Shown in pieces: positions 6,485-19,179 of a stretch of DNA of 64,000 nt (within the stretch, counting starts at the first letter, position 1; every line of letters starts with the position of its first letter). The notes below the pieces were generated by a model. It saw only the letters and a list, made by a program, of their open reading frames with translations. It was not told the DNA's origin and did not search any database. The translations under genes were made by a program, and so were the position numbers. This stretch comes from Candidatus Thermoplasmatota archaeon (GTDB lineage Archaea > Thermoplasmatota > SW-10-69-26 > JACQPN01 > JAJPHT01): positions 1 through 64,000 of the forward strand of contig DATLGO010000087.1 in NCBI GenBank assembly GCA_035540375.1, in the 5' to 3' direction.

Positions 6485-7066
6485 CTACCAATCGCCGTCG
6501 CGTGCGTAGGGTCTCGACCAGAGCGCGACCTGGATCGTGAGCGACTTTCCCCACGCGGCGTGCATGGCGTCGACCTCCTCCGGCGTGTGGCCGCCGAGCG
6601 CAAGGAACTTGCGGATGTCACTCATCGGGTGAACCATCGCGACGATGAAGCGAAGCGGCACGACGTCGGTGGACTCGACGCCGTCCGTCCGGTTCTTCTT
6701 GCTGCGATGGTGCCGGAGGGCGATCTCGTTTTGGTAATCGAGCCACGCTTGGTCCATCGGACGCTCGAGCGTGTCCTTCAGCCACATGACGAGGCGGCCG
6801 TGCGCGGCCTGGAGGTAGCGGTCGATGGGCTGGCCGTCCTTGCCGACGAATCCGGAAACGAAGATGCGTCCGAAGACGCCTTGCCATTGACCGAGCATCG
6901 CGTCGAGGTGCTGCGGCAGGAACGTCGCGGCCTTCCGGAGCGCCGCCTCGTCTCGCGGGGTCCACCCGACGCATTCCTGGAGGTCGGCGAGGTCCTTCAT
7001 CGTGACCGGGGAGCGTGCGACGGCGGCCGTGCCGTACGTGTAGCCGGCGGTGTGCATGGGATCCAT
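6485..7066 (-). CDS. pgb: Protoglobin (globin-fold heme protein)
   Basis: A 193-aa single-domain protoglobin, matching the roughly 195-aa length of Methanosarcina acetivorans Pgb as I recall it. Family landmarks include GYTYGT near the start, WLDYQNEIALRHHRSKKN (the region carrying the proximal heme histidine), the TDGVES loop, GHTPEEVDAMHAAW, and QVALWSRPYARDGDW at the C-terminus. Protoglobins bind O2, CO and NO; the physiological role in archaea is open. ATG at 7066 fits family length, but an in-frame ATG at 7120 would add 18 residues. It is divergent from an Lrp-type regulator, which suggests control from the shared intergenic region. Confidence 0.93.
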   Translation of the reverse strand: MDPMHTAGYTYGTAAVARSPVTMKDLADLQECVGWTPRDEAALRKAATFLPQHLDAMLGQWQGVFGRIFVSGFVGKDGQPIDRYLQAAHGRLVMWLKDTLERPMDQAWLDYQNEIALRHHRSKKNRTDGVESTDVVPLRFIVAMVHPMSDIRKFLALGGHTPEEVDAMHAAWGKSLTIQVALWSRPYARDGDW

Positions 7067-7206
7067 CGGGGAGATTCCATGCCGGAGAAAAGGGCGTGGA
7101 TCGAGGGCCCGACGGTTCATGCTCCGCCGTCGCCGCGGGTTCCGTTTCGTTCGGGGGCGCGCCCGCTTTCGGAAAGGGCTATGTCGCGCGCCGACCGTCC
7201 GCGGCC
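7067..7206. promoter_or_regulatory. Divergent promoter region, protoglobin / Lrp-type regulator
   Basis: About 140 nt between divergently transcribed genes. It holds an interrupted palindrome, CTTTC-G-GAAAG (7166-7176), and a TTCCGTTTCGTTCGG tract (7140-7154). No convincing TATA box is visible in either direction. The palindrome is a candidate site for the regulator starting at 7207. Confidence 0.3.
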
Positions 7207-8154
7207 GTGGACGCGACGGACATCGCCATCATGCGGGAGGTCTTCCGCGAGCGTGTCTTCTTCTGGGGGAACCTCGACCCGCGTCTCTCGCTTGAGACCA
7301 TCGCGCGCCGCGTCGGCCTCGCCCGCACCACGGTCCGCGCGCGGATCCAGCGCTGGTCCAAGGACGGGTTCATCGAGCGCTACGAGGTCATGCCCAACCC
7401 CTCTCTCTTCGGCGCGCGGCTCGGCGCGTGCGGGGTCCGCATCGAGGACCCTCGCGCGAAGGCGCGCTTCCTCGACGAGCTGGACCTCGTCGACGGCGTC
7501 GTCGTGGCGCTCGATCACCTCGGGCCTTGGGTCGTCGTGGATCTCGTGATCGACGAGCCGCGCCTCCTGGAGCGCCGGCGCAGGCTCATGGCGCGCCTCC
7601 CCGGCGTCAACGAGGTCGAGGAATGTCTTCCGATCGAGACCCCGCGCGCGACCGCCGACTTGACGGATCTCGACTGGCGCATCGTGAAGGCGCTCCGCGA
7701 GGCGCCGCTTGCGACGATCGACGCGACGGCGCGGAAGGTGGGCGTGAGCGCGAAGACGCTCGCGCGGCGCTACGAGCGCCTCGTCGCGTCGAACGCCGTG
7801 TGGTTCGTCCCGGTGCTCGACTTCGGCGGCTACACGGGCGGGAGCGTGGGGCGACTCATCGTCACCCTCGCGAAGGACGCGGACCCGCGCAAGGTCGCGA
7901 AAGGCCTGCGCGCGCTTCCGGGTGCCCTCGTCGTGGCGGACCTGCACCCCGTGCACCCGGGCCCCGTCCCGGGGCCCTTCGACGTGCTCTGCCACCTCGA
8001 CGCCGTCCCGCACGCGGAAGCGGTGCAGCGAGCGGCGCTCGACGTGACGGGCGTCGCGGGCGTCGAGGTCATCTTTCCCCGAAGCCTGCGCGTATACAAC
8101 GGATGGTTCGAGGCGCAGATGGGGAAGCTCGACGGCGCGTCGCCGCGGCGCTAA
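7207..8154 (+). CDS. Lrp/AsnC-type transcription regulator with two HTH domains
   Basis: A 315-aa DNA-binding protein built as two Lrp-like halves. The first HTH is near residues 3-60 (LETIARRVGLARTTVRARIQ) and is followed by a ferredoxin-like region rich in short beta strands. A second HTH is near 150-205 (IDATARKVGVSAKTLARRYE), followed by another ligand-domain-like region (SVGRLIVTLAKDADPRKVAKG). Lrp-type regulators usually bind amino acids or related metabolites. GTG at 7207 opens directly into the first HTH (VDATDIAIMREVF); the longer frame upstream overlaps the protoglobin start and reads as low-complexity. Its natural candidate target is the divergent protoglobin gene, or itself (inference). 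Confidence 0.85.
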   Translation: MDATDIAIMREVFRERVFFWGNLDPRLSLETIARRVGLARTTVRARIQRWSKDGFIERYEVMPNPSLFGARLGACGVRIEDPRAKARFLDELDLVDGVVVALDHLGPWVVVDLVIDEPRLLERRRRLMARLPGVNEVEECLPIETPRATADLTDLDWRIVKALREAPLATIDATARKVGVSAKTLARRYERLVASNAVWFVPVLDFGGYTGGSVGRLIVTLAKDADPRKVAKGLRALPGALVVADLHPVHPGPVPGPFDVLCHLDAVPHAEAVQRAALDVTGVAGVEVIFPRSLRVYNGWFEAQMGKLDGASPRR

Positions 8155-8351
8155 CGCTTCGGGACGTCCCGGATCGGCGTCATGGGCGGGGCACCGTCCG
8201 TGGACCCTCGCGCGCTCGCCACCAGAGCCTCGTCCTGCAGTCGATCGACGCGGATCGCGAGATTCCGGCGCATCGTTCCGTGGCGGTCGAGGTGGTCGGC
8301 GTCGCCCTCGTTGAGGATGGGGATCTCGTGATCCGTGCGCGGGATCGGCAC
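8151..8351 (-). CDS. Hypothetical 66-aa protein
   Basis: A short frame with a GTG start, ending tail-to-tail with the Lrp-type regulator (4-nt overlap of stop codons). The product is hydrophilic and charged (HEIPILNEGDADHLDRHGTMRRN) with no domain I recognise. It sits beside the duplication scar, so it may be a leftover of the duplicated segment. Confidence 0.3.
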   Translation of the reverse strand: MPIPRTDHEIPILNEGDADHLDRHGTMRRNLAIRVDRLQDEALVASARGSTDGAPPMTPIRDVPKR

Positions 8352-8415
8352 CCTCGCCCCTGTCGGCCGCGACGTGTAGAGTGTACGCGGCCATGTGGCC
8401 CGTCCGCGGTCCCTA

Positions 8416-8621
8416 TCAGATCTCCACCACGACCTCGCCCTTCGCCGCGTTCGCGTACGTCCGTCCCTTGAACGTCCGCATGTCGCCCGCGAGGCCCGCG
8501 AAGCGATCGAGGCTTTTCTCCTGCGTGTGGATGGGGACGAGCATCCCGGGCGAGGCGTTGCGGATGAGCTTCAGGATGTCCTGCGCGCCGCCGTGGCCGC
8601 TGACGTGCGTCGTGCCCGTCT
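8416..8621 (-). pseudogene. 3'-end remnant of the RNase J gene
   Basis: Positions 8414-8621 match 13704-13911, the 3' end of the intact RNase J gene, in the same orientation with no gaps and about six mismatches. The fragment would encode the last 67-68 residues (HVSGHGG motif through VVVEI) followed by a stop, but has no start or N-terminal catalytic part. Similarity stops within two bases of the stop codon on one side and at 8621 on the other. There the sequence switches abruptly to a copy of the kelch gene's 3' end. Confidence 0.85.
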
Positions 8622-10624: not shown

Positions 10625-11242
10625 TTACCGTCCCGAAGGGCCGCGGCGTTCGCGCCGTTGGATCATCAAGCCCGAGAGCGCGGCGAGGATTCCCGTGGTC
10701 CCGACAGAAATGAGGACCATCGGAAGCCACCCCTCCATTTCGGGGTTCTGGACGAGTTCGGTCACGGCGCTCGGCGGATTCGATCGCCAGTCGCCTCGGT
10801 CGCTCCAAGTCAGGATGACGTAGACGTCACTCGCGCAATGTCCGTCGGATGCGCGCGATGGGAGCGTGCCGGCCTTGACGTGGAACATCCCTTCCGTGAC
10901 GCCGCGCAAGACTGTCGCGCTCGGACTGAGGGGCGTCCCGGCGAGGAAGCGCTGGTGGTCGTCGCATCCGAGAACGTAGACGTCTCCCGAGCGGTTCGGG
11001 AACCGGTACATCCCCATGATGGTGCCGCTGTCGAGGACGTCGATGCCGTGTGGGACGGCGTACGTCCGCGACGCCGTTCCGTCGCGCGCCGTCGGGGCGC
11101 CCACGGGGACGAAGTCGTTCCGGTCGACGTCGGCGCTCGCAAGGGCATACGAGAAGCCGCTGATCGCGAGCAGGACGACGCCGACCATGAGGACGTGTCG
11201 TCCGCGCGCCGAGGGTTTGACTGGGCTGAGATGAGCTTTCAT
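10625..11242 (-). CDS. Membrane protein with single ectodomain, ABC-linked
   Basis: 205 residues. One N-terminal transmembrane helix (VLMVGVVLLAISGFSYALA), an extracytoplasmic domain of about 125 residues, and a C-terminal helix (LPMVLISVGTTGILAALSGLM) with a short basic tail. The ectodomain resembles that of the next gene: YRFPNRSGDVYVLGC, then LSPSATVLRG, then a second Cys and GDWRSNPPSA. The two conserved cysteines could form a disulfide. Its ATG overlaps the ABC ATPase stop by 4 nt. Function is unknown; a substrate-capture or stabilising subunit is plausible. Confidence 0.75.
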   Translation of the reverse strand: MKAHLSPVKPSARGRHVLMVGVVLLAISGFSYALASADVDRNDFVPVGAPTARDGTASRTYAVPHGIDVLDSGTIMGMYRFPNRSGDVYVLGCDDHQRFLAGTPLSPSATVLRGVTEGMFHVKAGTLPSRASDGHCASDVYVILTWSDRGDWRSNPPSAVTELVQNPEMEGWLPMVLISVGTTGILAALSGLMIQRRERRGPSGR

Positions 11243-12006
11243 GCGTTTTCCTCCTGACGGGTCGGTTGTGGAGTTTCAGATCCGGTGCCTTCGAGAAGCT
11301 TGATGAGGGCGGCCTCGAACGCGCGCGGGTCGCTCCCGAGCGTCGCGGCCGGGCCGCTGTAGGTGAGGCGACCCCGCGCGACGATGGCGATGTTCGCGCA
11401 GAGTTCGTGGACTTCGGTCGCGTCGTGGCTCGACAGGAAGACGGTCACATCCTGCTCCCGCGCGAGCCGCCGAAGAAGCTCCCAGGTTTCGCGCTTGGAG
11501 GGCAGATCGAGTCCCCGCGTGGGCTCGTCGAGGAACAGGACTCGAGGGCGGGAGAGCAGGGCGCGCGCGAGATCGACCCGCCGCTTCATGCCCGTGCTGT
11601 AGGAGGCGATGGCGCGATGGCGGAAGCGGGGGTCGAGCCGCACCGCGTCGAGAGCCTCGCGAACGGCGTCCTCCGCGCGAGGCATGCCGCGGATGCGGGC
11701 GAAGTATCCGAGATATTCCCGGCCGGTCCACGACGGCCGGCTGTCGGCCCCTTCGTCGCCCACGAGTCCGATGATCTCGCGGATGGCGAGCGGCTCGCTG
11801 ACAATGTCGTGACCCGCGACCGTCGCGTGGCCCGCGGTGGGGCGGATGAGGGTCGTGAGCATTTTGATGGTCGTGCTCTTCCCGGCTCCGTTCAGCCCGA
11901 GATAGCCGTAGATCGTGCCGGTGGGAACCGCGAGGTTCACGCCGTCGACGGCGACGAATTCGCCGTATCGGCGCGTCAGGTTCTGTGTTTCGATGGCGTA
12001 TTTCAT
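11239..12006 (-). CDS. ABC transporter ATP-binding protein
   Basis: A 255-aa nucleotide-binding subunit that would couple ATP hydrolysis to the neighbouring permease at the cytoplasmic membrane face. Walker A is GLNGAGKST (37-45), the signature is the less common YSTGM (136-140), Walker B is VLFLDE (156-161) with the D-loop at RGLD, and the H-loop is SSHD. Full family length. The closest class is the CcmA/NatA-type exporter ATPase (multidrug, sodium or polysaccharide exporters). It lies 9 nt downstream of the permease gene and overlaps the following gene. Confidence 0.93.
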   Translation of the reverse strand: MKYAIETQNLTRRYGEFVAVDGVNLAVPTGTIYGYLGLNGAGKSTTIKMLTTLIRPTAGHATVAGHDIVSEPLAIREIIGLVGDEGADSRPSWTGREYLGYFARIRGMPRAEDAVREALDAVRLDPRFRHRAIASYSTGMKRRVDLARALLSRPRVLFLDEPTRGLDLPSKRETWELLRRLAREQDVTVFLSSHDATEVHELCANIAIVARGRLTYSGPAATLGSDPRAFEAALIKLLEGTGSETPQPTRQEENA

Positions 12007-12015
12007 GGGATCATC

Positions 12016-13512
12016 TCACGAGATGCGTAGGCGTCGGACGAAGGCGAAGGCGGCCAACGCGAGGGGCGCGGGCAAGGAGGCGATGAGCAAATGCTCGGAC
12101 GCATCCGAGACCGCGGCGTGGATCGGGATTTCGGCGTGCGCATGACGCGTCTTGTTCTCGCCGGCGACATCGTACTTCGCGTGGATGTGGGCGACGTAGA
12201 AGTTCTTGGAAAATCCGTGCGGGTCGCCCGGATTCACCGTCAGGGGGAGGCGCAAGACGACGCCTTCGATGGGGCCGTTCACGATGGCGCCAGGGAGCGG
12301 TGCCGTCTCGTTGCGCGCGACCTGCTCAAACGTGAAGTTCCGCGACAGGTACGTTCCGTTGTCCCGTCCCGCGGGAATCGTGATCTCCACGGTGAGGTTC
12401 GTGACCGGAATGGATGGATCGACGGGAAGCAGGAGGACGAGGTGACGCTCGTTGTCCTCGTTGACCGCGAGGGGATCATCGGCCGTCTCGAGGTGGGGGT
12501 TCAGGAAATCCAGCTCGAGAGGGCTCGCTCCGGGTTCCCCGAGGGAAGCGAGGATGTTCACGGGACGCGCCCCGGGGATGTGGACCTGGGGCGCGCTCGG
12601 CTCCGCGATTCGGTACTCGTCGTTGGCGGCGGCCGCGGGAGCGAGGACGATCGCGGCGACGACCAGGGTTGTCAACCCTTTGTGGCGCGGCGATGCCTCC
12701 CAATCTTCGGGACCTTGACCGCGAAGGTAGACCCATGCCGAGAGGAGGGTGAAGCCGAGGGTGGTGACGGCGAGGGCGACGATGGCCTTCGCGGGGTCGA
12801 CCGGTGCTAGGCCTCCGCTGGCCTCGCTCGATACGGCGTCAAGGAGGTTGGGGTGGGGGAAGAGGTGCAGGATCGCAAGGAGCGTTCGGTTCGGGGCCGG
12901 ATCCTGGAGCACCTGAGCCATGAAGACACCGCTCATCACCGACACGACCGCAATCGAAACCGCGAGGCCGACGGGCGCGGCGAGCGAGCGTCCGGTGAAG
13001 ACGATGCCGAGGAACGTGCCGATGGCGGTGTAGGCGAGGATGAGCCCGATCGCGATGGGGACGAAGTCCTGGAAGATCTCCCCGCCCGCGCCGAGATGCC
13101 AAGCGATGACGGCAAGAATGGGCGCCGTCGTGACGAGGTACAAGACCCCGACGCTCGCCGTCACCAGAATGTTGGCCGCGAACCATCGGGATTGGGTGAT
13201 CGGCGCCGTATAGAGGCTGTGCGTGAGGCGGGACGCGCGCGGAGCCGACATGCGGGCGGCGGCGAAGGGCGCGACGAAGGCCGGGACGACGAGAAACGCG
13301 ACGACGCCGAAAGCGCGCAGCAGTTCGGGTGCGATGGCGACGGCGAGGAATCCGATGAAGGCCGTGGCCGCGGCGGCCCCCGCGAGCGCGAATCGTCCCC
13401 GGGGGAGGCCCCGCATCTCCTCTCGGTAGATCCTCCAAACGGTCGCCCTCGCGGATCGAGGCGATTGCCATGACGGGCGGGGGCTCGCGCGCAAGTTCGG
13501 CGGCGGTGTCAT
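12016..13512 (-). CDS. ABC transporter permease with C-terminal ectodomain
   Basis: A 498-aa membrane subunit. About six hydrophobic helices occupy residues 35-290 (for example FGVVAFLVVPAFVAPFAAA and IAIGLILAYTAIGTFLGIVF). A further hydrophobic segment at about 285-300 ends in LAPAAAA, an extracytoplasmic domain of about 160 residues with NETA/NGT glycosylation-like sites follows, and a final helix sits at the C-terminus. The N-terminal half fits ABC-2-type exporter permeases. ATG at 13512 is preferred; an in-frame start at 13539 adds 9 residues. It is the first gene of a five-gene minus-strand string. Confidence 0.85.
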   Translation of the reverse strand: MTPPPNLRASPRPSWQSPRSARATVWRIYREEMRGLPRGRFALAGAAAATAFIGFLAVAIAPELLRAFGVVAFLVVPAFVAPFAAARMSAPRASRLTHSLYTAPITQSRWFAANILVTASVGVLYLVTTAPILAVIAWHLGAGGEIFQDFVPIAIGLILAYTAIGTFLGIVFTGRSLAAPVGLAVSIAVVSVMSGVFMAQVLQDPAPNRTLLAILHLFPHPNLLDAVSSEASGGLAPVDPAKAIVALAVTTLGFTLLSAWVYLRGQGPEDWEASPRHKGLTTLVVAAIVLAPAAAANDEYRIAEPSAPQVHIPGARPVNILASLGEPGASPLELDFLNPHLETADDPLAVNEDNERHLVLLLPVDPSIPVTNLTVEITIPAGRDNGTYLSRNFTFEQVARNETAPLPGAIVNGPIEGVVLRLPLTVNPGDPHGFSKNFYVAHIHAKYDVAGENKTRHAHAEIPIHAAVSDASEHLLIASLPAPLALAAFAFVRRLRIS

Positions 13513-13576: not shown

Positions 13577-13705
13577 CGAATCCGCCCCGTCCAGCTTGCG
13601 GGCGAGTACCACCGGGTTTGCCTCCGCCGGGCCCGTCATGCGAGGGTCCGCCGCGTGGCCACGCCCTCGCGCAGCCGCCCGCCGCGGCACGACGCCGGTC
13701 GCGTA

Positions 13706-15367
13706 TCAGACCTCGACCACGACTTCGCCCTTCGCCGCGTTCGCGTACGTCCGCCCCTTGAACGTCCGCACGTCGCCCGCGAGGCCCGCGAAACGATCGA
13801 GGCTTTTCTCCTGCGTGTGGATGGGGACGAGCATCCCGGGCGAGGCGTTGCGGATGAGCTTCAGGATGTCCTGCGCGCCGCCGTGGCCGCTGACGTGCGT
13901 CGTGCCCGTCTTCGCGACGAGGACGTCGGCGTCGGCCTTCGAGGCCTTCACGTTGTGCTCCATCCCGAAGCGCGCGAGCCAGTTGCGCTGCCGCGCGAGA
14001 TCCATCGCCATCTCGTCCGAGTAGGGCTCGGTCGAGCAGCGGATCCAGCGCGATCCCGCGGGCGGCGCGAGGTCGAAGAGCTCGTTCGAGGCCCAGAACG
14101 AGAGGTGCACGATGTAGCGGTCGGGGTTGTCGAGCACGTCGAAGGCGCGCTTCGCGTTCAAGAAGTGGTGGAGGCCGAGCGAGAGGTAGCCTTCGTCGCG
14201 GTCCTTCCACGCCTTCTTCATGTCGGCGCTGCGGTCGCCCCAGTCCGCGAGGTAGCCGGCCTCGTGCTTCTCGTAGTCGCCGGGCTCGTCAAGCATCGAC
14301 TTCTTGCGGCGAAGGTACACGCCGACGTTGTCGTAATTCTCGACGCTTCGCGAGGGGAATCCTGGCACTGTTTCGAGACGCTTCAGGAGATACGCGGTGC
14401 GCGGGTCCACGAGGAGTTGGCGCCCCGTCGCGCTCGCGACGCGCTGGAGCGTGTCGAAGCGGGTCGTATCCTTCCATGCGAACTCCGCGACGACGAGTCC
14501 CTTCGCCTCCTGCGCGAGCTCCGTCACGCCGCGCTCGACGCCTTCCTCGTTGTCGGCTGCGTCGTGGTCGATGCGCGTGCCTTCGCAGAGCATCACGTCC
14601 GGCTCGAGGCTCTCGGTGGCCTTGAGGAGCGCGCTCGTGCGGTCCATCAGGCGGCCATGGAAGCGGATGTCGCCGCTGTAGAAAATGCGCTTCCCCGAAG
14701 GGGTCTTGACGAAGAAGGCACACGCACCGGGGACGGAGTGGTCGACGGGGATCGGGACGACGCTGAAAGGACCGACGTGGTGGACCTCCTGCTCGGCGAG
14801 CGTGCGGATGTCGCGGACCCCGTCAGTCGTGTCGACCGTCGGTCGATCGGGGAACGTCGCGCCCTTCCCGCTCGTGCCGAGCTCGCGCCGGCGAACGGTG
14901 GAGATCTCGCTCTCGATGTCCGTCCCGTTCACGTCCTGGATGGCGTCGATCATGCCCTTCGTGACGGGCGAGCAGTAGACGGGGATCTGCGGGTCGACGA
15001 ACGAGAGGTCCTGGAAGTGGTCGACGTGCGCGTGCGTCACGAGGATGCCGTGCACGAAGTTGCGCCCGCCGTTGCGGCGGCGCCACGCGTCGGCGCTCTC
15101 GGGGAGGTCCTTGTCGGTCGCGGCGCGCGCGACCGTGAGCATGTCCTCGCGGTAGATCCCGTCGACGTCGGGGAGGAGATCGAGGCGCAGAAGGTCGCGG
15201 AGGATCGCGTTCGCGCGGGGCCTGAGGAACTCCTCGAAGTAGTTCCCGCGCGCGCCGATGCTCATGCCGAAGTCGAGCAGGATCCGGTCGTCGCCCTCCT
15301 CGACGAGGAATTTGTTGCCGCCAATCTCGTTGACGCCGCCGTAGAGCGTGATGCGCGTCTTCGTCAT
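13706..15367 (-). CDS. rnj: RNase J-family metallo-beta-lactamase/beta-CASP ribonuclease
   Basis: A 553-aa zinc-dependent RNase. The N-terminus TLYGGVNEIGGNKFLVE is the typical RNase J opening. Metal ligands include THAHVDH (111-117), H210 in VDHSVPG and D233 in SGDIRFHG. The beta-CASP part runs through the middle and the C-terminus has HVSGHGG (491-497) and IHTQ (H517). Archaeal RNase J enzymes are 5'-3' exoribonucleases or endonucleases acting in RNA turnover. Its ATG overlaps the HAD phosphatase stop (ATGA), placing it at the end of the CARF/PIN operon. A fragment of its 3' end is duplicated at 8414-8621. Confidence 0.92.
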   Translation of the reverse strand: MTKTRITLYGGVNEIGGNKFLVEEGDDRILLDFGMSIGARGNYFEEFLRPRANAILRDLLRLDLLPDVDGIYREDMLTVARAATDKDLPESADAWRRRNGGRNFVHGILVTHAHVDHFQDLSFVDPQIPVYCSPVTKGMIDAIQDVNGTDIESEISTVRRRELGTSGKGATFPDRPTVDTTDGVRDIRTLAEQEVHHVGPFSVVPIPVDHSVPGACAFFVKTPSGKRIFYSGDIRFHGRLMDRTSALLKATESLEPDVMLCEGTRIDHDAADNEEGVERGVTELAQEAKGLVVAEFAWKDTTRFDTLQRVASATGRQLLVDPRTAYLLKRLETVPGFPSRSVENYDNVGVYLRRKKSMLDEPGDYEKHEAGYLADWGDRSADMKKAWKDRDEGYLSLGLHHFLNAKRAFDVLDNPDRYIVHLSFWASNELFDLAPPAGSRWIRCSTEPYSDEMAMDLARQRNWLARFGMEHNVKASKADADVLVAKTGTTHVSGHGGAQDILKLIRNASPGMLVPIHTQEKSLDRFAGLAGDVRTFKGRTYANAAKGEVVVEV

Positions 15368-16209
15368 GGTGCTTCCCCCGGGGTCGTCGGGGCCGTCGCG
15401 GCGGCCACGGGCAGAGCGACGCCACCGGACCGTAAATCCATTTGCCTTCGCGGGACCCGATCAGGGACGAGCGCGAGGAGGTCGTCGAGCTGACGGATCT
15501 CGCGATCCGCCCGGTGCGCGGGGTGATCGCTCGCGAAATCGGGCTGAAGACCGTACGTTGCGAGGGCCGTGCGGCAGCCGAGCGCCTTCGCGGGCCCGAC
15601 GTCGCGGCGCGGGTTGTCGCCGACCATGAGAAGCGCGCTCGCCGGGAGGTTGAGGCGCGCGAGGGCTCGTTCGAAGGGGCGGCTGTCGACCTTGCCGCGG
15701 GGCGTGTCCTCGACGGTGATGACGTCCTCGAAGAAGGCGCGCAGCCGCGACGCCTGGAGGCGCTTGAGCGCGCGGTGGCGCGGCGCGTCGGTGATGAGCG
15801 CGAGCCGGTAACCGCGTCGGCTCAATTCGAGAAGCGTGCGATGCGCGCGCGGATACGGCCGGGCCTCGGCCTCCTCGGCCGCGTCGAACGCATGCCTTCC
15901 CAGGATGACGAGCGACGGGTCGACGGTCCCGTAGGCGTCGAGGAGGAACAGGTCCACGACGTCGTCGCGGTCGATGCCCTGCTCGAGGGCCAGCCGCATC
16001 ATCGTCCGCGCCGCGACGGGAGGGTCGAGGTCGAGTCCAGCGTCGGCGAGCGCCCACGCGGCCGCTTCGCAGGCGCGTTCCTTGAGGCGGAGGATGTCGA
16101 CGAGCGTGCAGTCGAGGTCGAACGCGACGGCCTCGACCCCGTCGAAGGGCGCGGCGCCTCGCGGCTTCCAGGCGTCGTCGAGGTCGTCGTCGGCGAGGGT
16201 GGATCCCAT
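15364..16209 (-). CDS. HAD-superfamily phosphatase
   Basis: A 281-aa hydrolase with all four HAD motifs: I FDLDCTLVD (nucleophile and acid aspartates), II LITDAP (Thr), III the Lys in TPRGKVDSRPF, and IV GDNPRRD. A helical cap lies between motifs I and II. The last 40 residues (from RQMDLRSGG) look disordered. ATG at 16209 is preceded by a GGGGTG ribosome-site-like sequence; the longer frame overlaps the PIN gene. Substrate unknown. It lies 58 nt after the PIN gene and overlaps RNase J, so it might process phosphorylated RNA ends or nucleotide products (inference). Confidence 0.85.
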   Translation of the reverse strand: MGSTLADDDLDDAWKPRGAAPFDGVEAVAFDLDCTLVDILRLKERACEAAAWALADAGLDLDPPVAARTMMRLALEQGIDRDDVVDLFLLDAYGTVDPSLVILGRHAFDAAEEAEARPYPRAHRTLLELSRRGYRLALITDAPRHRALKRLQASRLRAFFEDVITVEDTPRGKVDSRPFERALARLNLPASALLMVGDNPRRDVGPAKALGCRTALATYGLQPDFASDHPAHRADREIRQLDDLLALVPDRVPRRQMDLRSGGVALPVAAATAPTTPGEAP

Positions 16210-16267
16210 CACACCCCGATTGGAGCCCGAACGGGATCGGCCCTCTTTCAGATCGTTCGATGCCGAC

Positions 16268-17350
16268 TCAAACGACCGATCGGGCGCGGAGGATGGCCCG
16301 CGAGGCCTCGACGTCCCGCGCGAAGGTCTCCATGACCGGGCCGCCCCCATGATCGACGCGCAGCATCTCGGCCGCGCCGTGCGCCGGCGTCTTCGCGCTC
16401 CAGTCGCCCCAGAGCCGCGCGTTCAACCCGCTCAGGTGGACGACCCCGAAGGCGACCGCTAGGTCATGGACGAAGCGCGCGAGCGTCCGTTCGTCGACGA
16501 AACCCTGCGGGATGGCCGTTTCCCGCGGGAGCTGGAGGTGGAGGCTCTTGACCCCCGCCGCCTGGGCGTGCCGCGTCATGTCGCCGTCGGACGTGAGGAG
16601 GAGCAGGTCCGCATGGTGCGCGCGCCGGAACGCGCCGTAGCTCTGCGCGATGAGGCGATCGTTCGTCTCCTTGTCGGTGGCGAGCGGCTCGCAGCTTGCG
16701 CGCATCGCGCGAGTGTGTTTCGTGAAGGCCTCGACCGCGTCGTATCCGAGCTTCGCCCTGCGGCCTTTCTTGAACGAGCGCCCGCGGAGCCATGACGCGG
16801 AGCGCCCCTCGTGCAGCTTGGCCGCGAGCGACGTCACGTCCGCCTCGCTGTACTTGTCGGCGATGGCGCGGTCGAGTTCCGCGAGGACGCCCTCGCTCAC
16901 GACGTAGCGGAACGACCCCATGCGGCCCGTGAGGAGGTCGAGCGGCAGCCCGCGGTCGGGGAGCCGGTTGTAGAGCGCGTTCGTGTCGAAGGCGAGGAAC
17001 GTCGGATTCGGGTTCGACGGATTCGCGGCGTTCGCGGCCTCCCGCTCGAGCGTCGCTGCCGCCTCGTCGTGGTTCGCGTATCGGAGCAATCCCGCCGAGA
17101 GCATCGCGTCGCGCAGGTCGCTCCACGCAGGCTGATCGTCCGCGAGCTTCGGCTTCGCGGGGGTGTATTTCTCGCGCGCGGCATCGAGCGCTTCCTCCGA
17201 AACGCCGTGCGTGATGGCGCCGCTTCGCGGGTCGTACTCGAAAAGCGCGAGATTGAAGTACGGATAGCGGACGACGAGTCGTTCCCGCCGGTCGTGGAGC
17301 GCGTTGAGGAGCGCGACGAACTCGTGCGAGGCGACGACGAGATCAGTCAT
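16268..17350 (-). CDS. PIN-like domain nuclease linked to CARF genes
   Basis: A 360-aa protein. The first 110 residues form an unassigned domain. From about residue 115 it reads as a PIN-type RNase: FLAFDTNALYN (D122), VVSEGVLAELD (E153/E158), a central Lys-rich helix, TNDRLIAQSYGA (D231), then LLLLTSDGDM (D255, D257). These acidic residues are the metal-binding set expected of an active PIN nuclease. It is longer than VapC toxins and no antitoxin is adjacent. Its start overlaps the CARF-like gene by 8 nt. By context it may be the effector that the CARF proteins control (inference). Confidence 0.75.
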   Translation of the reverse strand: MTDLVVASHEFVALLNALHDRRERLVVRYPYFNLALFEYDPRSGAITHGVSEEALDAAREKYTPAKPKLADDQPAWSDLRDAMLSAGLLRYANHDEAAATLEREAANAANPSNPNPTFLAFDTNALYNRLPDRGLPLDLLTGRMGSFRYVVSEGVLAELDRAIADKYSEADVTSLAAKLHEGRSASWLRGRSFKKGRRAKLGYDAVEAFTKHTRAMRASCEPLATDKETNDRLIAQSYGAFRRAHHADLLLLTSDGDMTRHAQAAGVKSLHLQLPRETAIPQGFVDERTLARFVHDLAVAFGVVHLSGLNARLWGDWSAKTPAHGAAEMLRVDHGGGPVMETFARDVEASRAILRARSVV

Positions 17351-17825
17351 CGGCGAGGCCCTCCTCGGACAGATCGCGGGCGCGTTGGATGCGCGCCGGG
17401 ACGAGCGGATACGGGAGGTCGCGGTAGTCGTACCCCGCGACGTCGAGGTAGAACACGTGATCGGGTCTGCCGCTTCGGGCCGCGTCGAAGAGCGCGAGCT
17501 TCGCGACGGTGCGGCCCGGGGTGACGTCCACGGCCACCTTCCTCGCCTCCATCTGGGCCTTCTTGATGAGACGCAGGGCCTCGTTGCGGATCGCCGCGAA
17601 ATCGTCGATCTTCACGGGCACGAGATGGATGACGGGTTTCTCGACGCCGAGCGCCTGCAGCGCGACGCCGATTTGGTCGACGAGCCGCCGCGCGCGGTCC
17701 GTCGTCGCGTCGGGCGTGAAGACGTGCACGTCCTTGGGGACGAAGCGCCGCTGGCGCGCGGCCGCCCAGAGGCTGTTGAGCGTCGCGAATTCGGACGCAT
17801 ACTCCTGCGTGATGAGGACGGTCAC
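17343..17825 (-). CDS. Stand-alone CARF-like domain protein
   Basis: 160 residues with a Rossmann-like pattern: strand MTVLITQEYA, strand VHVFTPDA, then KVAVDVTPGRTVAKLALFDA (97-116). That last segment corresponds to the (T/D)xTGGT nucleotide-binding loop of CARF proteins but reads DVTPGRT instead of TGGT. No HTH or nuclease domain is attached. CARF domains bind cyclic oligoadenylates in type III CRISPR signalling; this one may be a sensor subunit or a ring-nuclease-like protein. It overlaps the upstream CARF-wHTH stop (ATGA) and the PIN gene. Confidence 0.65.
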   Translation of the reverse strand: MTVLITQEYASEFATLNSLWAAARQRRFVPKDVHVFTPDATTDRARRLVDQIGVALQALGVEKPVIHLVPVKIDDFAAIRNEALRLIKKAQMEARKVAVDVTPGRTVAKLALFDAARSGRPDHVFYLDVAGYDYRDLPYPLVPARIQRARDLSEEGLADD

Positions 17826-18436
17826 GCCGACCCCCCCGCGGCGACGAAGTGCGACCGATAGTAGTGGCCTGCCGCGGTGAGCGACGCGGTCAGGTGGTCG
17901 GCGCGGACGAGGCCGGCCTTGCGCAGGCGGAGAAGCGCTCCCTTGAGTGTCGCGGGCGCGAGGCCCGAGGTCGCCGAAAGCGCCGCCTGCGTGGCCTCGC
18001 CCTTCACCGGAAGCGCGAGGAGCACGCCGCGGTCCGTTTCGAGGATGCGGTCCGCGAGCTTCACCGAGACGGCGACCGGGAGCCGGGACACGCCGCGGGC
18101 GTGGCAGAAGAAGGCCTCGACGCCCTCCTCGAAGGCGGCAAGCATGAGCGCGGTCGTGACGAGGTTCGGCCCGCCGCCGACGTGCACCCGCACCCCGCCC
18201 TTGCGATGGGCCTGGATCGCGGCGCGCGCCGCGGCGAGCGTCCCGAGGAGGTCGGCGGCGTCCACGCCCACGACGTCGACGTCGACCCCGGTGAGACGCT
18301 CGTTTTCGCGCACCGCGTCCATCTCGACGCTCTTGGGGTCGGCCGTGACGACAACGAGCCGCGATCGCCCGACGAGCCGTCGCGCGGCGTCGAAGGCTTC
18401 GCGGTCGAGGCCGTGCCCGGTCAGAAGCGTCGCCAT
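17822..18436 (-). CDS. CARF-like wHTH protein (second of pair)
   Basis: 204 residues. The N-terminal part starts MATLLTGHGLD, the CARF strand-plus-glycine opening, and carries VHVGGGPNLVTTALMLA (85-100) where CARF proteins have the TGGT loop. The C-terminal 60 residues form a winged helix (GEATQAALSATSGLAPATLKGALLRLRKAGLV). It is similar in plan to Csa3-type regulators. It begins 2 nt after the stop of the first CARF-wHTH gene. Its ligand loop is altered (GGGPN), so its ligand may differ from that of its neighbour. Confidence 0.75.
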   Translation of the reverse strand: MATLLTGHGLDREAFDAARRLVGRSRLVVVTADPKSVEMDAVRENERLTGVDVDVVGVDAADLLGTLAAARAAIQAHRKGGVRVHVGGGPNLVTTALMLAAFEEGVEAFFCHARGVSRLPVAVSVKLADRILETDRGVLLALPVKGEATQAALSATSGLAPATLKGALLRLRKAGLVRADHLTASLTAAGHYYRSHFVAAGGSA

Positions 18437-18438
18437 GC

Positions 18439-19068
18439 TCACGGCCCCATGAGGAGGAGCGCGGCGGATTCGCGCACGCGCAGCGTCTCGCGGCGGGCGT
18501 CCTTCGGGTCGGCCTCGCTCGAGAGGAGCTGCTTCGCCTTCAGGTTCGTGACGTGGTGGCTCACCGTGCCGCGACTGAGCTTGAGCGCGCGCATGATCTC
18601 GGCCTGGTCGCATCCCTTCGCGCCCTTCTCGGAAACGAAGCGCAGGACGCGGCGCTGGGGCTCGTTCAGGATCTCTTCGTAGCGAAGGCTCAGAAGCGGG
18701 AGCCGGACCTCCTTCTGGCTGCGCTCGTCGATGTACACCGCGCGCACGCCTTCGAGGATGCACGCGAGCGTCGCCGCGGCGCTGATGACGGGCGTCCCGC
18801 CCGTGATGTTGAACACGACGTTCTCCGCGCCTTCCTTGCGAAGGTCCGCGCGCATCGCCTTCGCGCACTGGATGATGTCGAACGCGTCGAGCGCGATGGC
18901 CTTCGCCGCGAGGCCGCGCTCGCGGCAGAATGCGCGAACCTGCTCCGCGGCCTCCCGGCTCTTCGCCGCGTGGTCGTGGTAGAAGACGAGCTTGGTCACG
19001 TCGTCGTAGGCCGTGACCGTCGGGAGCAGTTTGCCCGGCGTGAAGCCGAGGGTGCCAAAGACGATGAT
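18439..19068 (-). CDS. CARF-wHTH protein (Csa3-like), probable AUC start
   Basis: A ligand-controlled regulator: a CARF domain with the canonical NITGGTPVIS loop, then a winged helix (DQAEIMRALKLSRGTVSHHVTNLKAKQLL). The first conventional start is GTG at 18999 (186 aa), but that would lose the first strand of the fold. The reading frame upstream encodes IIVFGTLGFTPGKLLP, a good CARF first strand with the LGF turn. No ATG, GTG or TTG occurs between that and an in-frame TAA at the promoter. A strong GGGGAGGT (19075-19082) sits 6 nt before ATC at 19066-19068, so initiation at AUC is proposed (209 aa). It is the first gene of a six-gene minus-strand operon. Confidence 0.75.
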   Translation of the reverse strand: MIVFGTLGFTPGKLLPTVTAYDDVTKLVFYHDHAAKSREAAEQVRAFCRERGLAAKAIALDAFDIIQCAKAMRADLRKEGAENVVFNITGGTPVISAAATLACILEGVRAVYIDERSQKEVRLPLLSLRYEEILNEPQRRVLRFVSEKGAKGCDQAEIMRALKLSRGTVSHHVTNLKAKQLLSSEADPKDARRETLRVRESAALLLMGP

Positions 19069-19074
19069 GTTGAG

Positions 19075-19139
19075 ACCTCCCCGTTCGAGCGGCCGTGAAA
19101 TATTCGACCGGGGCGGATAGATGGTGTTGGATTATTTAA
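19075..19139 (-). promoter_or_regulatory. Promoter and ribosome site of the CARF operon
   Basis: On the minus strand TTAAATAAT (19139-19131) is a good archaeal TATA-like element. Transcription would start near 19105-19110. GGGGAGGT at 19082-19075 is a near-perfect Shine-Dalgarno sequence, 6 nt upstream of the proposed AUC start. A second AT-rich patch, AATATTT (19104-19098), lies between them. Confidence 0.5.
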
Positions 19140-19151
19140 CGAATCGTAGAA

Positions 19152-19179
19152 CGAGCGGGGCCGGACCCGGCCCCGCTCG
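19152..19179 (-). terminator. Perfect 13-bp GC hairpin between two minus-strand operons
   Basis: Arms at 19152-19164 and 19167-19179 are perfectly complementary (CGAGCGGGGCCGG and its reverse complement) around two bases. It begins 8 nt after the stop of the gene ending at 19188 and lies just upstream of the CARF promoter. On the minus strand it is followed by a moderately T-rich stretch. Most simply it ends the upstream transcript, although archaeal termination relies mainly on T-runs. Confidence 0.5.

Follow-up and report, generated by a model that had tools for sequence, protein, structure and literature searches.

An archaeal operon that may join a split CARF-PIN ribonuclease to regulators and helper enzymes

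A 64,000-nucleotide stretch of contig DATLGO010000087.1 from a Candidatus Thermoplasmatota archaeon (GenBank assembly GCA_035540375.1), hereafter the window, carries on its minus strand, at positions 13706–19068, an operon of six genes: CARF1, CARF2, CARF_m1, PIN, HAD, and beta-CASP, in order of transcription. Structural models match the products of CARF_m1 and PIN to the sensor and nuclease halves of a single known fused protein, i.e., the pair is a split CARF-PIN. We hold with moderate confidence that the operon combines this split ribonuclease with regulators and helper enzymes to form a nucleotide-gated RNA-degradation or dormancy module. The usual interpretation of a CARF domain is that it receives cyclic oligoadenylate (cOA) made by Cas10. 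The CARF_m1, CARF3, and CARF-PIN families were known before (PADLOC 2023), and the structure of one fused relative has been solved; what appears to be new is the split, mostly Cas10-free CARF-PIN module and the unusual operon that contains it in this genome. A literature search whose scope left aside the main classification paper returned no article on CARF proteins with RNase J, on CARF-PIN by name, or on SiRe_0806.

The two proteins are assigned to a split CARF-PIN because both match a single solved fused protein, SiRe_0806 of Sulfolobus islandicus (PDB 9jxw, 9jxx with cyclic tetra-adenylate, cA4), deposited as a PIN domain-containing protein. CARF_m1 (17343–17825, minus strand; loop DVTPGRT), the sensor half, belongs to the PADLOC family CARF_m1 (PDLC01972, 1.4e-19), and a Pfam scan gave neither a significant match nor a recognised DNA-binding domain. 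Its AlphaFold2 (AF2) model (pLDDT 92.4) predicts a Rossmann-like CARF fold; the best 50 PDB matches listed are all CARF proteins (Cam1, Csm6, Crn1/Sis0455, Can2, Card1, Csa3, and SiRe_0806), the highest TM-score being 0.69 to SiRe_0806 with cA4, so that the first-pass annotation's assignment of this third CARF protein withstood structure comparison. A CARF_m1 profile also recovers the SiRe_0806 chain at 2.3e-7; matches of the same profile to TAL effectors were set aside as repeat or composition matches. The nuclease half, PIN (16268–17350, minus strand), aligns to positions 219–454, that is to the PIN half, of the fused PADLOC profile CARF_m1--CARF_PIN (PDLC01973) at 1.3e-16. Across 33 homologues, its acidic residues D122, D231, and D255 never vary, while E158 is present in 30; all four are intact in the window protein. 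The top five matches of its AF2 model (pLDDT 92.2) are all SiRe_0806, over alignments of about 290–370 columns, followed by PIN domains.

SiRe_0806 is therefore the closest solved structure to both window halves, by TM-score or by rank, and shares with them the combination of CARF and PIN. Measured against a CARF-PIN effector, the window pair has the CARF-fold sensor and the four-acid PIN domain and lacks the single chain: SiRe_0806 and PDLC01973 are each one chain, whereas the window encodes two genes that overlap by 8 nt, in agreement with the earlier proposal that sensor and nuclease are separate proteins. The window pair also differs in its low identity across the aligned structures (12–17%), in a motif II Lys replaced by Thr in CARF_m1, and in belonging to a genome in which no Cas10 was detected.

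Overlapping genes in which a small protein precedes a PIN nuclease, together with weaker fold matches of the PIN model to VapC, are also what would be expected of a toxin-antitoxin pair, in which CARF_m1 would be the antitoxin of a VapC-like toxin and its ligand binding a vestige. Nevertheless, CARF_m1 has no recognised DNA-binding domain, and its CARF loop is conserved: 67 of 69 sequences have Lys or Arg as the final motif residue. The PIN protein is more than a plain PIN domain, as it also has a conserved stretch of about 110 aa at its N-terminus, and no mobility was seen, as a virus scan and a search of a plasmid collection for the PIN protein returned no relatives. We consider this explanation rather improbable.

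The split CARF-PIN is widespread. In the set of 390 genomes of the phylum, the fused-profile search found matches in 40, of which 38 are counted as pair-bearing after discounting weak matches in G025 and G233 (G numbers denote genomes and L numbers fetched loci). A scan of named organisms gave 34 loci, mainly from Thermoplasmata, Methanomassiliicoccales, DHVE2, and Aciduliprofundum, with one in Helarchaeota and one in Thermoprotei. CARF_m1 and PIN are split and overlapping in all 31 named loci that were measured, by 4 nt in 24 of them. In the PIN tree the rows follow host family and require no more changes than the minimum, which fits vertical inheritance and not roaming. A divergent form was seen in L063, L065, and L066, where the gene after CARF_m1 encodes a PIN-like protein of far greater divergence, placed outside the grouping of almost all the rest.

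The wider gene order is conserved in part. The earlier annotation had looked to conservation of the cluster; CARF-CARF-CARF_m1-PIN does recur in the same order, with a divergent HAD gene, in three distant species known from metagenome-assembled genomes (L101, L102, and L103), and CARF_m1-PIN recurs in dozens of genomes, but the six-gene unit does not. In L026, a CARF-wHTH (winged helix-turn-helix) gene, CARF_m1, and PIN have a prokaryotic viperin gene and a helicase-like gene as neighbours. This viperin (L026, 11348–12310; PADLOC pVip, 2.4e-79) adjoins the CARF-wHTH and helicase-like genes, as does a second one in L100 (15367–16161) assigned by sequence resemblance only; both loci are from genomes with CARF_m1-PIN nearby.

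The source of a signal for this pair was sought among known cyclases. The first-pass annotation described an operon with no CRISPR genes, and no cas gene was found in the window; the organism does, however, have a type I-E locus elsewhere (L135; G000:C75, 4643–15208) with Cas1e, Cas6e, Cas7e, Cse1, Cas3, and about 35 repeats, which rules out an organism without CRISPR. Type I-E systems are not known to produce cOA. The check for Cas10 in the rest of the genome that had been suggested found none: in the assembly, about 97% complete and covered by profile searches and a few stretches, there was no Cas10 palm (PF22335) and no RAMP match. In the phylum set, Cas10 exceeded its cut-off in 11 of the 390 genomes and in three of the 38 pair-bearing ones (Fisher p = 0.08); among 35 pair-bearing genomes tested, mCpol did so in none and SMODS in two. 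Incomplete assemblies limit each of these absences, 30 of the 35 genomes being at least 90% complete. None of the scanned CARF_m1-PIN loci has a CRISPR array within the fetched stretch, and a three-copy array match at the edge of L082 was discarded as low-complexity. Elsewhere, in L029 (G020), two convergent CARF-wHTH genes (6818–8188 and 10894–12149) lie a few kb from a 20-copy CRISPR-like array. Since the host has no known cOA source, the ligand may come from an unrecognised enzyme or be an RNA fragment.

The same data bear on the view that the pair is an ordinary type III CRISPR accessory, which answers cOA from a Cas10 encoded elsewhere, situated in the missing part of the assembly, or recently lost. 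PIN RNases do count among cOA-activated type III effectors (PMC12669027), three pair-bearing genomes carry Cas10, and an assembly of this completeness could lack the gene. Yet 35 of the 38 pair-bearing genomes have no Cas10, and in the three that do (G036, G176, and G226) it is unlinked to the pair, the two being on different contigs or about 400 kb apart. The lack of RAMP families in the host genome and of arrays near the scanned pairs points the same way, and relics would hardly combine vertical inheritance with intact catalytic residues. This alternative appears quite improbable.

The ligand loop of CARF_m1 gives some indication of what may be sensed. Its usual form in 69 sequences is D-h-T-x-(G/A)-(R/T)-K, with Lys at the last position in 65, Arg in two, and Thr only in the window and in G005. 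In Crn1/Sso2081, cA4 is bound via G104-R105-K106, and G9-T10-S11 serve catalysis (PMC10018336). The (G/A)RK loop of the CARF_m1 family resembles this cA4-binding motif II, which makes the family a plausible binder of cyclic or phosphate-rich ligands. The window clade has lost the Lys and a GRS-like motif I and has retained the Arg, which suggests a changed ligand or a loss of ring cleavage. The first-pass view that the loops of the three CARF proteins differ, hinting at different ligands or a degrading role, was half right: TPGRT departs from the (G/A)RK of its family, and GGGPN of CARF2 replaces the GGT of the L101–L103 orthologues.

CARF sensing outside CRISPR has a precedent in the RtcR RNA repair operon, where RtcR uses its CARF domain to bind tRNA halves that carry a terminal cyclic phosphate, and controls RNA-end enzymes (PMC7790460). 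By analogy, CARF_m1 and the CARF-wHTH proteins might sense RNA ends (e.g., 2′,3′-cyclic phosphate) in RNA surveillance or turnover, with no cyclic oligonucleotide involved. The partners encoded in the window, i.e., PIN, the beta-CASP exonuclease-like protein, and the HAD phosphatase-like protein, are RNA-end enzymes, and Cas10, mCpol, and SMODS are mostly absent from pair-bearing genomes. On the other side stand the GRK-type loop retained by the CARF_m1 family, like motif II of Crn1, and the crystallisation of its closest solved relative with cA4. Moreover, a domain search of the six genes found no rtcBA, AAA+, or ligase gene, so that, unlike in the RtcR operon, there is no AAA+ activator, RtcA, or RtcB, and nucleases replace the ligase. 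We regard this possibility as unlikely.

The split CARF-PIN is preceded in the operon by two Csa3-like regulators, in both of which a CARF domain is followed by a winged helix. CARF1 (18439–19068, minus strand; loop ITGGTP) belongs to the PADLOC CARF3 family (PDLC01853, 2.7e-70) and exceeds the Pfam cut-offs of Csa3_N, Cas_APE2256, Card1-CARF, and MarR. CARF2 (17822–18436, minus strand) matches PDLC01856 at 1.1e-26 and HTH_24 above the Pfam cut-off; its degenerate loop reads GGGPN where the L101–L103 orthologues have SGGT, and the L102 orthologue is above the Pfam CARF cut-offs. With Csa3 and CARF3 regulators the two share the combination of CARF and winged helix, and CARF1 the TGGT loop. They differ in that they form a tandem pair away from a cas locus, in the degenerate CARF2 loop, and in a score below the NCBIfam Csa3 cut-off (47.9 vs. 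60.2 bits) for the window protein. No ATG, GTG, or TTG start in CARF1 retains strand beta1. The start is probably the ATC at 19068, because two indications converge there: the approximate starts of the L102 and L023 orthologues and the Shine-Dalgarno sequence GGAGGT (19075–19080), 6 bases upstream. An ATC in this position reflects either an uncommon start codon or a fault in the assembly.

Upstream of CARF1, a GC-rich hairpin followed by TTCT (19152–19179, minus strand) ends the preceding gene and is a likely operon boundary, and a TATA-like element, TTAAATAAT (19131–19139, minus strand), lies about 65 nt ahead of CARF1; read from the sequence, these two elements indicate that the six-gene operon probably has its own promoter. 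Coordinates confirm the earlier description of six minus-strand genes that nearly all overlap. CARF2 and CARF_m1 overlap by 4 nt, as do HAD and beta-CASP; the exceptions are a 2-nt gap between CARF1 and CARF2 and a 58-nt gap between PIN and HAD, the sole sizeable one. Given the PADLOC and Pfam match values, the gene assignments are not due to chance. The gene identities first proposed hold for the three CARF proteins, the intact PIN, and HAD, but not for the last gene, which had been called RNase J.

That last gene (13706–15367, minus strand) encodes an RNase J-like beta-CASP metallo-nuclease and not RNase J proper. It exceeds the cut-offs of PF12706 (beta-lactamase) and PF07521 (RMMBL), contains HxHxDH and a C-terminal RMMBL region, and thus has the metallo-beta-lactamase, beta-CASP, and RMMBL parts of RNase J and EF2904 nucleases. 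However, it falls far under the RNase J cut-offs (64.9 vs. 820 bits for RnjA, and 60 vs. 400 for TIGR00649), its closest solved structure, EF2904, is not an RNase J, and its occurrence is patchy (17 of 60 relatives). The genome has no second intact copy of the gene. A truncated one, comprising its last 69 codons, lies 5.3 kb away beyond ABC-transporter genes and forms with it a direct repeat of 208 nt at 97% identity (8414–8621 and 13704–13911). Further off in the window (29427–50985) lie three very large genes on the minus strand (1198, 3231, and 2642 aa); their products, which contain CARDB, NPCBM-associated, Ig-like, and fn3 domains, are likely surface proteins.

The HAD gene (15364–16209, minus strand) encodes a phosphatase-like protein that matches HAD families only (Pfam HAD, 4.8e-22), with the motifs DLDCT, ITDAPR, and GDNPRRD intact. 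In L021, L022, L023, L025, L079, and L101–L103, a HAD gene lies next to CARF1-type or CARF_m1-PIN genes, whereas in the Chp effectors, where a HAD phosphatase is likewise linked to CARF, HAD, membrane helices, and CARF form one protein in a type III-A locus (PMC12715507). Direct neighbours of CARF genes also include beta-CASP genes, both in the window and in L024, L076, and L112; in L073 and L077 they are close by. In a tree of 20 beta-CASP proteins, the five CARF-linked rows tested require five changes, the same scatter as with shuffled labels. This rules out the CARF-linked copies as one inherited subfamily and implies that the linkages arose separately; such repeated, separate linkage argues for function. 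The probability of four tight beta-CASP/CARF linkages by chance is near 4e-7, a post hoc figure based on rough assumed gene densities, namely 0.3 beta-CASP copies in a genome of 2 Mb, and on 50 loci. Chance is about as improbable for the HAD adjacency, again post hoc and with assumed densities.

In fused CARF-PIN effectors, the CARF half is thought to control PIN. In the proposed module, CARF_m1, probably a dimer, would bind a small nucleotide or RNA-end ligand, originating from an unrecognised enzyme or an RNA fragment, and would then turn PIN on, or free it, in trans by protein contact. Cleavage leaving 5′-phosphate ends is the general chemistry of PIN/VapC proteins; RNA cut by PIN in this way would feed a 5′-3′ exonuclease of the beta-CASP type, such as the last gene product. 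The HAD protein could remove phosphate from RNA ends, nucleotides, or the signal itself, as CARF-linked HAD effectors dephosphorylate ATP and IMP (PMC12715507). CARF1 and CARF2 would respond to that ligand or to a related one and control expression of the operon, and the outcome would be a controlled RNA decay, serving as dormancy or abortive defence.

Several observations weigh against the nucleotide-gated RNA-decay module. The six-gene set was found in this genome only, its absence from the relatives' loci rules it out as a conserved unit, and in G005, of the same class, the parts are spread over three loci. Given how common the HAD and beta-CASP families are, parts of the operon could be bystanders. 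The structural match rests on separate single-chain models of CARF_m1 and PIN, and cA4-type binding by the window CARF_m1 is doubtful because Thr replaces the family Lys and the usual motif I is missing. In two lineages the pair stands in constant chromosomal surroundings, which is less typical of defence. In several genomes (L062, L077, and L083–L089), CARF_m1-PIN comes after an invariable set of genes of amino-acid pathways (homoserine dehydrogenase-, citramalate/isopropylmalate synthase-, and HPr kinase-C-like).

An intact CARF-nuclease pair is conserved across archaeal families, mostly without Cas10 and nearly without other known cyclases. We tentatively propose that it represents Cas10-independent archaeal CARF signalling, in which a vertically inherited split CARF_m1-PIN may be switched by RNA fragments or by a nucleotide that an unrecognised enzyme makes. 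In this lineage, the pair may have been brought together with a phosphatase, a beta-CASP exonuclease, and two CARF regulators in one RNA-decay operon. The pair is a natural separation of sensor and nuclease, useful for biochemistry, and makes the question of what CARF effectors answer to outside CRISPR testable with small proteins.

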